Assembly (NCBI RefSeq): GCF_002158905.1
Contig: NZ_CP021431.1
Location: 310,001 to 374,000, forward strand
DNA: 64,000 nucleotides
Source of the DNA: Yoonia vestfoldensis
Lineage (GTDB): Bacteria; Pseudomonadota; Alphaproteobacteria; Rhodobacterales; Rhodobacteraceae
Direction of reading: 5' to 3'
Below the pieces are notes generated by a model, which saw only the letters and a list, made by a program, of their open reading frames with translations, ran no database searches and had not been told where the DNA came from. Of this stretch, positions 36,899 through 52,851 are shown piece by piece (positions within the stretch are counted from its first letter, which is position 1; the number at the start of each line of letters is the position of its first letter). A program made the position numbers and the translations under genes.

Positions 36899-38122
36899 TC
36901 AGTCTGTTGCGGCGCGGTACCATGCGGCGAGCGTGGCGCGGTCCTCATCCGGCAGGCCGGTGATGTTGGCGGGCGGCATCGCATGGCTGATCCCCGATTG
37001 CACATAAATCGCGCGGGCGTGGTGGGCGATATCGGCTTCGGTTTCCAGAAACACGCCTTTGGGCGCCCAGTGCAGATTGCCCCAGACCGGTTCGCGCGCA
37101 TGGCACATCGAACAGCGCCCGATGACGATGTCATGCGCCTCCTCGAAGCCCGCCGCAGAGGCGAAGCGTTGTTCATAGGCTGTCAGCGCGCGCGCCTCGG
37201 CCTCTTCATAGCTGTCGTGGCCGGGGAAGGTCGACAGCCACGCGATCGCGATGAATAGGATCACGGTGACCACCCATGTCCATGTCGGCTTGCCTTTGCG
37301 CGCATGCATGGAATTGAAATAATGCCGGATCGTGACCCCCATCAGGAACACCAATGCTGCGATGATCCAGGCGTATTGCGTCCCGAACGCCAGCGGATAA
37401 TGGTTCGACAGCATCAGAAAGATCACCGGCAGCGTCAGGTAATTGTTATGGGTCGAGCGTAATTTCGCGATCTTGCCATATTTCGGATCTGGCTTGCGCC
37501 CGGCCTTGAGGTCCGCGACCACGATTCGCTGGTTCGGCATGATGATGGCGAAGACATTGGCCGTCATGATCGTCGCGGTGAAGGCCCCCAGATGCAGCAA
37601 GGCGGCCCGTCCAGTGAAGACCTGGTTATAGCCCCAGGACATCACCACCAGCAGCGCGAAAAGCAGCAGCATCAAAGTTGTTGGTGTTTCTCCCAGCCGC
37701 GATTTGCAAAGCTGGTCATAGATCACCCAGCCGATCCCCAGCGAGGCGGCCGAGATCAGCACGCCCTGCCAGATCGCCAGATCCGCCTTGGCCGGATCGA
37801 TCAGGTATAATTCCGCCCCGACCCAATAGACCACCGCCAACAGGGCCGCACCCGATAGCCATGTCGCATAGCTTTCCCATTTGAACCAGGTCAGGTGGTC
37901 GGGCATCGCATCGGGGGCGACGAGGTATTTCTGGATATGGTAGAACCCGCCGCCATGGACCTGCCATTCCTCGCCATCGGCGGGGCCTTGGATGTTGCGG
38001 TTCAGCCCCAGATCAAGTGCGATGAAATAGAACGACGACCCGATCCAGGCGATGGCCGTGATCACATGCAGCCAGCGCAGGGCAAAGGCCAGCCATTCCC
38101 ACAAGATCGCCACATCATACAT
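36899..38122 (-). CDS. puuD: Urate hydroxylase PuuD (membrane, cytochrome c fused)
   Basis: A 407-residue membrane protein with about eight hydrophobic segments and a C-terminal cytochrome c domain (about 320-407). It matches PuuD, which oxidises urate to 5-hydroxyisourate with electrons passing to the heme. Blocks are HVITAIAWIGSSFYFIALD near the start, HGGGFYHIQKY, IMPNQRIVVADLKAG and LRSTHNNYLTLPVIFLMLSNHYP. The heme site is CSMCH (IGRCSMCHAREPVW). The start at 38122 (MYDVAILWEW) is set by alignment; the longer frame is a shadow. The next gene diverges and continues the urate pathway. Confidence 0.93.
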   Translation of the reverse strand: MYDVAILWEWLAFALRWLHVITAIAWIGSSFYFIALDLGLNRNIQGPADGEEWQVHGGGFYHIQKYLVAPDAMPDHLTWFKWESYATWLSGAALLAVVYWVGAELYLIDPAKADLAIWQGVLISAASLGIGWVIYDQLCKSRLGETPTTLMLLLFALLVVMSWGYNQVFTGRAALLHLGAFTATIMTANVFAIIMPNQRIVVADLKAGRKPDPKYGKIAKLRSTHNNYLTLPVIFLMLSNHYPLAFGTQYAWIIAALVFLMGVTIRHYFNSMHARKGKPTWTWVVTVILFIAIAWLSTFPGHDSYEEAEARALTAYEQRFASAAGFEEAHDIVIGRCSMCHAREPVWGNLHWAPKGVFLETEADIAHHARAIYVQSGISHAMPPANITGLPDEDRATLAAWYRAATD

Positions 38123-38277
38123 CTGTCGGCTCCTTTTAGCGTCAGCACCCGATCTTGTCGCCTTGTGCCGCCTTGTGCCAGCGGAAAATGCCTGCGGCGG
38201 CACTGTGCCGATGCGGGCTTGCAAAACTGCCCAAAGCTCCGGCACAAAGCTTGTGACTGATCCTGCAGGAGGCCCAG

Positions 38278-39678
38278 GTGCAACGCTACCCCCGTGATAT
38301 GACCGGCCATGGTGCCGAACCGCCCGTCGCCAACTGGCCCGGTGGCGCGCGCATCGCCGTGCAGATCGTGCTGAATTACGAAGAGGGCGGCGAGAACAAC
38401 ATCCTGCATGGCGATGCCGCGTCAGAGGCCTTTTTGTCCGAGATTGTTGGCGCCGCCGCCTGGCCCGGCCAGCGGCATTGGAACATGGAAAGCATCTATG
38501 AATATGGCGCAAGGGCCGGGTTCTGGCGCTTGCACCGGATGCTCGCTGATCTGCCGGTCACGGTTTACGGCGTGGCGACAGCCTTGGCCCGCGCCCCCGA
38601 ACAGGTCGCGGCCATGCAGCAGGCAGGCTGGGAAATCGCCAGTCACGGGCTGAAATGGATCGAATACAAGGACGCCCCCGAAGATGTCGAACGCGCCGAT
38701 ATGCTGGCGGCGATCCGCCTGCATACCGAGGTCACAGGCAGCCCGCCGCGCGGCTGGTATACGGGGCGCTGTTCGGTCAATACCGTGCGCCTTGCCGCCG
38801 AGACCGGACAATTCGCCTATGTTGCCGACAGCTATGCCGATGATCTGCCCTATTGGATGGAATATGGCAGGCGCGACCAGCTGATCGTGCCTTATACGCT
38901 CGATGCCAATGACATGCGTTTCGCCACGCCGCAGGGGTTCAACGCAGGCGGGCAGTTTCTGGATTACCTCAAGGCCAGTTTCGATACGCTCTACCGCGAA
39001 GGCGGGCGGATGTTGTCCATCGGTCTGCATTGCCGCCTGATCGGCAGGCCCGGCCGGGCCGAGGCGTTGCGCCAGTTCATCGACTATGCGCAGGGGCATG
39101 AGGGCGTCTGGTTCGCGACCCGCGCCCAGATCGCCGACCATTGGGCGGCGACGCAGCCACATGTCCGGTTCGCCCGCCCGTCACAGATGGACCGCGACGC
39201 CTTTGTCGCGGCTTACGGCGGCATCTTCGAACATTCGCCCTGGATCGCCGCAGAGGCGCATGCGCTGGAACTGGGGCCTGCGCATGACACGGCGCTGGGC
39301 CTGCACAACGCGCTCTGCCGCGTGTTCCGGTCAGCAGGTGACGACGCGCGGCTGGCCGTGCTGAACGCGCATCCTGATCTGGCAGGCAAGCTTGCCGCCG
39401 CCAAACGCCTGACGCCTGACAGCACGGCCGAACAGGCCAGCGCGGGGCTTGATGCGCTGACCGATGCCGAACGTGCGGGCTTTCAGGCGCAGAACGCGGC
39501 CTATCTGGACAGGTTCGGCTTTCCCTTCATCATCGCGGTGCGCGACCATGACAAGGCCGGGATCATGGCGGCCTTTGCCGCGCGGTTGCAAAACGACCGC
39601 GCATCAGAACTGGCCGAGGCCTGCCGCCAGGTCGAACGGATCGCGCTGCACCGCTTGCGCGGGCTGTTGCCACGATGA
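38278..39678 (+). CDS. Fused allantoinase (PuuE) and OHCU decarboxylase
   Basis: A 466-residue fusion of two urate-pathway enzymes. Residues about 1-300 are a PuuE-type allantoinase of the polysaccharide-deacetylase fold (YPRDMTGHGAEPPVANWPGG, VLNYEEGGENNILHGD, GWEIASHGLKWI, GRCSVNTVRL). About 305-466 is an OHCU decarboxylase domain (YGGIFEHSPWIAAEA, VLNAHPDLAGKLA, FGFPFIIAVRDH). It starts with GTG at 38278 with AGGAGG upstream. OHCU decarboxylase makes allantoin; the allantoinase part opens it to allantoate. A gene for 5-hydroxyisourate hydrolase is not in the window. It overlaps allA by 4 bp. Confidence 0.94.
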   Translation: MQRYPRDMTGHGAEPPVANWPGGARIAVQIVLNYEEGGENNILHGDAASEAFLSEIVGAAAWPGQRHWNMESIYEYGARAGFWRLHRMLADLPVTVYGVATALARAPEQVAAMQQAGWEIASHGLKWIEYKDAPEDVERADMLAAIRLHTEVTGSPPRGWYTGRCSVNTVRLAAETGQFAYVADSYADDLPYWMEYGRRDQLIVPYTLDANDMRFATPQGFNAGGQFLDYLKASFDTLYREGGRMLSIGLHCRLIGRPGRAEALRQFIDYAQGHEGVWFATRAQIADHWAATQPHVRFARPSQMDRDAFVAAYGGIFEHSPWIAAEAHALELGPAHDTALGLHNALCRVFRSAGDDARLAVLNAHPDLAGKLAAAKRLTPDSTAEQASAGLDALTDAERAGFQAQNAAYLDRFGFPFIIAVRDHDKAGIMAAFAARLQNDRASELAEACRQVERIALHRLRGLLPR

Positions 39679-52152: not shown

Positions 52153-52155
52153 ACC

Positions 52156-52851
52156 ATGCTGAAAGTTGAAAACCTGACATTGCATTATGGCGCATCGCAG
52201 ATCCTTTGGGGCGTGTCGCTGGATGCGCCGGCGGGGGCGGTCACGGCGGTGATGGGCACCAATGGCGTGGGTAAGACCAGCCTTTTGCGCGCCATCGCGG
52301 GGCGGCATCCCTATTCGGGCGGTACCATCACGCTGGACGGGCAGATGCTGCACCACCCCCGCGCGGCACAGGCCGCTCAGGCGGGCATCGCCTATGTGCC
52401 GCAGGGGCGCGAGGTATTTCCGCTGCTGAGTGTGACCGAAAACTTGCAAACCGGTTTCGCGTGTCTGCCGCGTAGCGAGCACAAGATCCCCGACCGGATC
52501 TATGAGCTGTTTCCGGTGCTGTTCGACATGCGCGACCGGCGCGGTGGCGATCTGTCGGGCGGGCAGCAACAGCAGCTGGCCATCGCGCGCGCGCTGATCG
52601 CGCGGCCCAAGGTGCTGTTGCTGGATGAACCGACCGAAGGTATCCAGCCCAATATCATCAAGCAGATCGGCAAGGTGATCGCGCTTTTGCGCGACGAGGG
52701 CGAGATCGCCATCGTGCTGGTCGAGCAATATTTCGATTTCGCCTATAGCCTCGCCGACCAGTTCTGCGTGCTGAACCGGGGCGAGGTCGTGCTGTCGCAA
52801 CCCGCCAGCGCCGTGACGCGGGATGCGATCTTGCAACAGGTGTCTATCTGA
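52156..52851 (+). CDS. urtE: Urea ABC transporter ATPase UrtE
   Basis: A 231-residue LivF-type ATPase. Walker A is GTNGVGKTSL, signature DLSGGQQQQLAIARAL and Walker B VLLLDEPTEGIQP; IVLVEQYFDFAYSLADQF holds the H-loop position (Gln rather than His: EQYFDFA is the LivF/UrtE type). It is the last gene of urtABCDE and its stop overlaps that of oppF by 8 bp in convergent orientation. Confidence 0.95.
   Translation: MLKVENLTLHYGASQILWGVSLDAPAGAVTAVMGTNGVGKTSLLRAIAGRHPYSGGTITLDGQMLHHPRAAQAAQAGIAYVPQGREVFPLLSVTENLQTGFACLPRSEHKIPDRIYELFPVLFDMRDRRGGDLSGGQQQQLAIARALIARPKVLLLDEPTEGIQPNIIKQIGKVIALLRDEGEIAIVLVEQYFDFAYSLADQFCVLNRGEVVLSQPASAVTRDAILQQVSI

Follow-up and report, generated by a model that had tools for sequence, protein, structure and literature searches.

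The beta-hydroxyaspartate cycle (BHAC) has so far been portrayed as a route for glycolate in the marine carbon cycle, and the roles of its four enzymes, BhcA-D, like those of the purine degradation enzymes PuuD, PuuE-UraD and AllA, are well established for the respective families. In Paracoccus denitrificans, the portions of PMC11323563 consulted here list bhcR as Pden_3922 and bhcA as Pden_3921 and describe the regulator BhcR, a sister to the IclR/AllR clade, as being required for bhc expression and responsive to glyoxylate, and the introduction of the same article (mBio 2024) mentions that glyoxylate can derive from purines and allantoin. Here we analyze a locus in a 64,000-nucleotide stretch of the Yoonia vestfoldensis genome (NZ_CP021431.1, positions 310,001 to 374,000; hereinafter the window, with coordinates given within it) in which genes for the late steps of purine (urate/ureide) catabolism directly adjoin a complete set of bhc genes. 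This cluster probably joins the two pathways, with the BHAC as the glyoxylate-assimilating end.

The gene identities in the window were assigned by hmmscan against NCBIfam and Pfam. The puuD gene (36899..38122, minus strand), coding for the membrane urate oxidase of the cytochrome c type, passes the Pfam cut-off (PF06181, 443 bits on the 537-aa open reading frame, ORF), and its product matched no NCBIfam model; the start was trimmed to 38122 (407 aa), which is most likely the actual one, as opposed to 38512, given that the extended ORF reaches antisense into puuE. Next to it are a fusion of the allantoinase PuuE and the OHCU decarboxylase UraD (38278..39678, plus strand), with both domains above the cut-off (TIGR03212, 496 bits against 425; TIGR03164, 197 bits against 96), and allA (39675..40145, plus strand), coding for the ureidoglycolate lyase that yields glyoxylate and urea (PF04115, 175 bits with a cut-off of 23; the NCBIfam model NF002952 gives 248 bits, below its cut-off of 260). 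Urate oxidase, OHCU decarboxylase, allantoinase and ureidoglycolate lyase of the urate-to-glyoxylate pathway are thus all encoded in the window, and the domain scores bear out the initial annotation of the three genes. Using representatives from relatives as queries, no credible match to uraH, allE, a purine permease or xdhA was detected within the window, and neither was a TIGR01879 amidohydrolase, the candidate allantoate amidohydrolase. Two other matches were discarded, namely a uraH-like one inside the long PuuD ORF, which is a shadow of puuE, and a LysR-like one antisense to puuD, which is a shadow of puuD; in both cases, the reference ORFs overlap the respective gene on the opposite strand.

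The bhc genes occupy the minus strand in the order bhcD (iminosuccinate reductase, 40142..41107; NF045643, 592 bits, cut-off 500), bhcC (3-hydroxy-D-aspartate aldolase, 41189..42379; NF045642, 740 bits, cut-off 690), bhcB (beta-hydroxyaspartate dehydratase, 42370..43335; NF045641, 600 bits, cut-off 550) and bhcA (L-aspartate:glyoxylate aminotransferase, 43332..44522; NF045640, 741 bits, cut-off 650). The divergent bhcR gene for an IclR-family regulator (44685..45503, plus strand; NF045644, 393 bits, cut-off 350) probably starts with the TTG at 44685, and a putative BhcR box, the palindrome TGAAA-N5-TTTCA, is located between bhcR and bhcA (44657..44671). The full BhcA-D set with its regulator, every member of which exceeds the curated cut-off, was correctly recognized in the initial annotation, and so was the 4-bp tail-to-tail overlap with the purine genes: allA ends at 40145 on the plus strand and the bhcD ORF at 40142 on the minus strand. 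The purine and bhc genes of the window accordingly form convergent units, without a shared transcript of the kind suggested by the gene order in Paracoccus (see below). BhcC is 98% identical (best segment) to its counterpart from Y. vestfoldensis SKA53, and the SKA53 locus (L125) has the same layout as the window, including the ACR3-family gene and urtA-D discussed below. On the BhcABCD tree, the bhc set of the window (40142-44522) stands apart from its congeners, to which BhcD is 70-74% identical, compared with 82-91% for BhcC; possibly, this set consists of mosaic or replaced alleles.

To assess the linkage more broadly, we searched for BhcA in an order-level set of 196 genomes from 87 genera, all of which belong to a single family (Rhodobacteraceae), and found it above the cut-off in 110 of them; many genomes of the family also encode a second BhcA-like aminotransferase below the cut-off (about 525-617 bits). 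Up to 20 kb around bhcA (6 kb before and 14 kb after) were fetched, giving 112 loci from 111 genomes, among which G194 was included with a truncated BhcA below the cut-off and G002 contributes two loci; 13 loci are shortened by contig ends, and for 4 the ORF families contain no complete bhcC-bhcD pair, in some cases at contig ends. A locus was considered linked if the fetched stretch contained at least one of puuD, puuE-uraD, allA, allE and uraH. ORF clustering and tblastn with score limits gave equal totals: 57 of the 111 bhc-bearing genomes and 34 of the 57 genera are linked, so that the clustering within 20 kb is not limited to the Yoonia genome. Among the full-length loci, 51 of 99 are linked; three or more of the five urate/ureide genes are present in 45 of the 112 loci, and four or more in 30.

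When the neighboring gene families were ranked without the use of any purine gene list, the top seven after bhcA-D and bhcR were puuE-uraD (45), allA (45), uraH (39), allE (37), a LysR regulator (37), puuD (35) and xanthine permease (33 plus 5), with a GAPDH family at 20 and xdhA at 7 (the LysR, GAPDH and xdhA labels are based on their sequences and on plasmid annotations). The tblastn counts are similar, namely AllA 47, PuuE-UraD 45, uraH 42, allE 39 and PuuD 38. Random placement (20 kb of about 4 Mb) predicts puuD near bhcA in fewer than one of about 106 genomes, compared with the 35 observed. Among the named loci, which are the best 80 of 568 matches and come partly from the same genomes as the survey, 38 are linked. 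Genome-wide co-occurrence was set aside as evidence because PuuD is nearly universal in the family (185 of 196 genomes; AllA, 190 of 196), being found in 106 of the 110 BhcA-positive genomes and in 79 of the other 86.

The linked genes are arranged in a variety of ways. The bhc genes can be nested between uraH-puuD and permease-allA-puuE (L146 and L226), and the purine genes can be located before bhcR (L192 and L202), reversed before bhcR (L189) or co-directional after bhcD (L001, L005 and L014). On the BhcABCD tree (116 rows, built by a quick method with no bootstrap), at least 26 changes between the linked and unlinked states are required, a raw count, uncorrected for chance, in which gain and loss are inseparable. 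Of the two sets of G002, L008 is linked, and the second set, L025, retains only a broken allE remnant (L025:4379-4974) beside bhcR and may once have been purine-linked as well, so that this genome does not provide a clean contrast between the two states.

In Paracoccus ferrooxidans, the genes downstream of bhcD, all on its strand, code for a purine permease (after 39 bp) and 8-oxoguanine deaminase (1-bp overlap), and then come uraH (17 bp) and puuD; the latter (L234:19550-20797, CP038202.1) is deposited as a cysteine desulfurase but is identified by tblastn as PuuD (69% over 412 aa). A consensus scan of this region placed its single promoter-like site ahead of bhcA and a strong stem resembling a terminator right after uraH, and listed no promoter- or terminator-like site between bhcD and the permease gene; such scans also match shuffled sequences (1.1 and 5.0 expected). 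The gap between bhcD and the permease gene is 44 bp in Paracoccus sp. SMMA_5 and 35, 3 and 41 bp in G185, G048 and G092, respectively, the latter being three genomes of one survey genus; in all four, the permease gene is followed by uraH and puuD on the strand of bhcD. Judging from the gene order and spacing, the bhc and purine genes of Paracoccus appear to form an operon-like array.

The TGAAA-N5-TTTCA palindrome was detected in 65 of the 112 regions upstream of bhcA, compared with at most 2 in five shuffles. A matrix derived from 91 box sites has 155 matches in bhc promoters (the training sites included) and 15 in the remaining 2.18 Mb, and 4 of these 15 are located between puuE and uraH. 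In the regions preceding puuE-uraD, p<=0.05 against shuffles is reached by 13 of 45, compared with 15 of 250 control genes, with kinship ignored in this comparison. We infer that BhcR binds this box, which might extend its reach to some of the purine genes.

The linkage is also encountered outside the family. In a phylum-level set of 398 genomes, BhcA was found above the cut-off in 17, of which 12 belong to the same family and 5 to other families. In one genome of the latter group (G333), bhc genes are accompanied by puuD, puuE-uraD, allE, allA and uraH (L116); this genome has a linked (L116) and an unlinked (L117) bhc set, which pair as sisters on the tree. Another locus from outside the family (L119) is shortened by a contig end, and three with BhcA below the cut-off (L120-L122) contain no bhcBCD.

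BhcB-like genes (tblastn, E<=1e-100) are present in 116 plasmid records, of which we inspected 21, hand-picked to cover the genera, two of them unannotated and therefore assessed by tblastn. Purine genes are located near bhc on 12 of the 21, from Leisingera, Pseudosulfitobacter (two), Alloyangia, strain SC52, Ruegeria sp. AD91A, Sulfitobacter sp. W027, Paracoccus versutus, Paracoccus sp. SMMA_5, P. ferrooxidans and Methylobacterium (two). The array on plas3 of Alloyangia pacifica encompasses xdhABC-permease-guaD-allE, bhcR, bhcABCD, permease-allA-puuE, a LysR gene and puuD within about 20 kb, and the Leisingera cluster additionally includes modABC (molybdate) and an AmiS/UreI-type transporter. 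Neither glcDEF nor purine genes were found near bhc on 7 plasmids, those of Ruegeria pomeroyi, Phaeobacter gallaeciensis, Aminobacter, Agrobacterium, Limimaricola, P. marcusii and P. pantotrophus. The Agrobacterium plasmid has an alpha-hydroxy acid oxidase gene near bhc; on the Limimaricola plasmid, bhc is accompanied by urt, urease, NCS1 transporter and racemase-family genes that may represent an allantoin set. The P. gallaeciensis plasmid pP75_g (L221), a small plasmid typed as conjugative, carries only bhcB and bhcC, with genes for RidA and an FAD oxidase, adjoining mercury resistance genes.

As a control, we searched for glycolate oxidase using GlcD, GlcE and GlcF from this genome as queries. 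None of the three was detected in the 112 family loci, indicating that the usual bhc neighbors in this family are purine genes, not those of glycolate oxidase; glcDEF was found in one of 9 loci from other families (L115) and in one (L182) among the best 80 of 568 named loci. The GlcD model TIGR00387 was rejected as a test of presence, given that 165 of the 196 genomes match at E<=1e-130, none above the cut-off, and this threshold splits a single distribution. Glyoxylate carboligase (Gcl) was found in none of the 196 genomes, this one included, at E<=1e-120, with the E. coli control scoring above the cut-off.

Several observations weigh against a link between purine catabolism and the BHAC. An intact urate/ureide enzyme gene is missing from 55 of the 112 loci, and only 5 of the 11 bhc-bearing genomes from the genus of the window are linked, with 6 unlinked, so the linkage state varies even within a genus. 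In other families, one of the 5 bhc-bearing genomes (one of 6 loci) is linked, and on two of the 21 plasmids, from Sinorhizobium meliloti Rm41 and S. fredii NGR234, the genes near bhc are glcDEF. The puuD-puuE intergenic region of the window contains no BhcR box at a matrix score of 12, and urtA is located near bhcA in 2 of the 112 family loci. Of the 86 genomes lacking an above-cut-off BhcA, 81 encode AllA, which, together with the absence of Gcl, implies that glyoxylate from purines can be disposed of differently, perhaps through malate synthase. Furthermore, several steps of the purine pathway are encoded outside the window: an AllE-type gene is found at C1:2811449 (295 bits, cut-off 200), a candidate allantoate amidohydrolase gene at C1:387131-388438, 37 kb beyond allA (NF006775, 450 bits, below the cut-off of 479), and urease far off, at C1:2715401; uraH was detected neither in the window nor in four other 20-kb stretches of the genome (L209-L212), the rest of which was not searched. 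Finally, a glcDEF-like set is present on the same contig, 2.3 Mb from the window (L210), in which GlcF is above its cut-off (464 bits against 333) and the adjacent GlcD and GlcE are below theirs (434 against 568 and 276 against 284, respectively). Thus, glycolate can be predicted to feed the BHAC of this genome as well, which is therefore not reserved for purines.

With this qualification, the cluster appears to be best explained by the following scheme. PuuD would oxidize urate, PuuE-UraD would finish the formation of allantoin and open its ring, AllA would cleave ureidoglycolate to glyoxylate and urea, and BhcA-D would convert two molecules of glyoxylate into one of oxaloacetate without loss of CO2; the purine-derived glyoxylate probably acts via BhcR to turn the BHAC on. 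What was directly observed are the gene identities, the lack of Gcl, the operon-like order in Paracoccus and a linkage that extends to roughly half of the bhc-bearing genomes sampled in the family; flux through a purine-fed BHAC, its induction and its benefit would be consequences of the scheme. The initial proposal that glyoxylate from purines enters the BHAC instead of the carboligase reaction is accordingly backed by the linkage, its varied layouts, the Paracoccus order and the lack of Gcl, but not in an exclusive form, given the glcDEF genes. A more sweeping generalization, which we put forward tentatively and would not yet favor over its negation, is that Rhodobacteraceae and Methylobacteriaceae maintain the BHAC chiefly to conserve carbon at the end of purine catabolism, within guanine-to-oxaloacetate superclusters that are partly plasmid-borne. 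Glycolate would then be a second job, and bhc would lead a purine operon induced by glyoxylate even in Paracoccus, where the BHAC was first discovered.

Among the alternatives, the strongest competitor, although in our assessment a less likely one, holds that the aim of the system is nitrogen scavenging, with the BHAC mainly clearing glyoxylate and little carbon being gained. Purines are rich in nitrogen, the genome encodes urease, urt genes are located next door in the window, and AmiS/UreI-type transporters are encoded in two related clusters. However, the product of the BHAC, oxaloacetate, fits carbon use, and so does the GAPDH-family gene that follows bhcD in about 20 of the survey genomes, and also in L136, L144, L184 and other loci; in L025 (10918-14220), genes for a redoxin, GAPDH and malic enzyme follow bhc. 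These neighbors suggest that the BHAC is coupled to gluconeogenesis.

A related and more doubtful possibility, in line with the initial annotation, is that in this lineage UrtABCDE belongs functionally to the module as its third component, through the uptake of urea. The complete set, with all five models above the cut-off, indeed follows bhcR after a single gene, on the plus strand: urtA, coding for the binding protein of the urea ABC transporter (46914..48194; TIGR03407, 526 bits, cut-off 493), urtB (48199..50220; TIGR03409, 378 bits, cut-off 250), urtC (50225..51418; TIGR03408, 299 bits, narrowly above the cut-off of 296), urtD (51316..52152; TIGR03411, 359 bits, cut-off 304), for which the ORF start overlaps urtC and the true start is probably later, and urtE (52156..52851; TIGR03410, 331 bits, cut-off 286). 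The identical layout in SKA53 speaks for such a role, and so do the occurrence of urt near bhc or a bhc remnant in L137 and L201 (among the best 80 of 568 named loci) and in G125, and of urt with urease near bhc on the Limimaricola plasmid. Nevertheless, urtA rarely adjoins bhcA, as noted above, AllA frees urea inside the cell, so that no uptake step is needed, and bhcR is separated from urtA by a gene for an ACR3-family arsenite transporter (45500..46663, minus strand; TIGR00832, 390 bits, cut-off 283). The urt genes are therefore more aptly viewed as a loose neighbor of the purine/bhc cluster than as a proven part of the module.

The ACR3 protein contains the stretch GAAPCTAMVFVWS, which we take to be the conserved cysteine region of the family, and its gene is probably an unrelated insert; a similar gene is located between bhcD and a permease gene in the Marivita loci L165 and L177 (among the best 80 of 568). 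In the locus of a Loktanella metagenome-assembled genome (L137:10001-11161), a lone bhcC is flanked by urtA on one side and by allA-puuE-puuD on the other, and bhcA, bhcB, bhcD, bhcR and ACR3 gave no tblastn match in that locus; this arrangement resembles a collapsed form of the window cluster. On the flanks of the window cluster, puuD is adjoined (31807-36831) by genes for an aldehyde dehydrogenase (two matched stretches), deoC, an AraC-type regulator and an rpe-like epimerase, and an oligopeptide-type ABC transporter is encoded on the far side (52844-58531).

It seems improbable that the genes are neighbors by shared ancestry only, through passive inheritance of an old chance arrangement in Rhodobacteraceae, with the BHAC serving glycolate. 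Such an origin is compatible with the fact that the commonest layouts are common to related genera, with the near universality of the purine genes in the family and with the glcDEF-type genes in this genome. It is difficult to reconcile with the conservation of the association through many different layouts and numerous state changes on the tree, with the linkage in Methylobacterium and G333, with the operon-like order in Paracoccus, with the lack of glcDEF neighbors in the family loci and with the excess of puuD over random placement. The notion that the BhcA-like proteins are ureidoglycine-glyoxylate aminotransferases of the PucG type, with no BHAC involved, is very unlikely: both are class V aminotransferases, but BhcA of the window is well above its cut-off and is accompanied by bhcBCD and bhcR, all above theirs.

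If the joining of purine catabolism to the BHAC holds, purines from dead cells and algae would also feed this cycle, and marine bhc genes and transcripts would be no simple sign of glycolate; the carbon yield of purine scavenging would need re-estimating, and the use of purine carbon without CO2 loss at the glyoxylate step in carboligase-free bacteria would be explained. In the literature, judged mostly by titles and abstract openings, we found no report of the clustering of bhc and purine genes. To this extent, the initial view that feeding from purines is not the usual account stands, whereas purines as a source of glyoxylate are already in print (in the introduction of PMC11323563).

Comparison with the described systems brings out both the shared parts and what sets this locus apart. 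In the purine clusters of Doniselli et al. 2015 (PMC4562309), as described in the portions consulted, PuuD is likewise the membrane urate oxidase, often found with urate transporter genes, and glyoxylate, aminotransferase and hydroxyaspartate have no occurrences in the main text of that article. For SAR11, also marine Alphaproteobacteria, the consulted portions of PMC11698098 describe the same route to glyoxylate and urea, and also to NADH, and the main text contains no occurrence of hydroxyaspartate or glycerate. The allantoin/glyoxylate regulon of E. coli (AllR, allA, gcl) similarly combines a ureidoglycolate lyase that yields glyoxylate with a glyoxylate-responsive IclR-family regulator, but there glyoxylate is processed with loss of CO2 by the carboligase, an enzyme found in none of the 196 genomes of the family set. 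The BHAC locus of P. denitrificans consists of the same four enzymes and a divergent IclR-family regulator; whereas the consulted portions of PMC11323563 describe it as a system for the assimilation of glycolate and glyoxylate, here, as in many relatives, the same genes are packed together with those of purine degradation.

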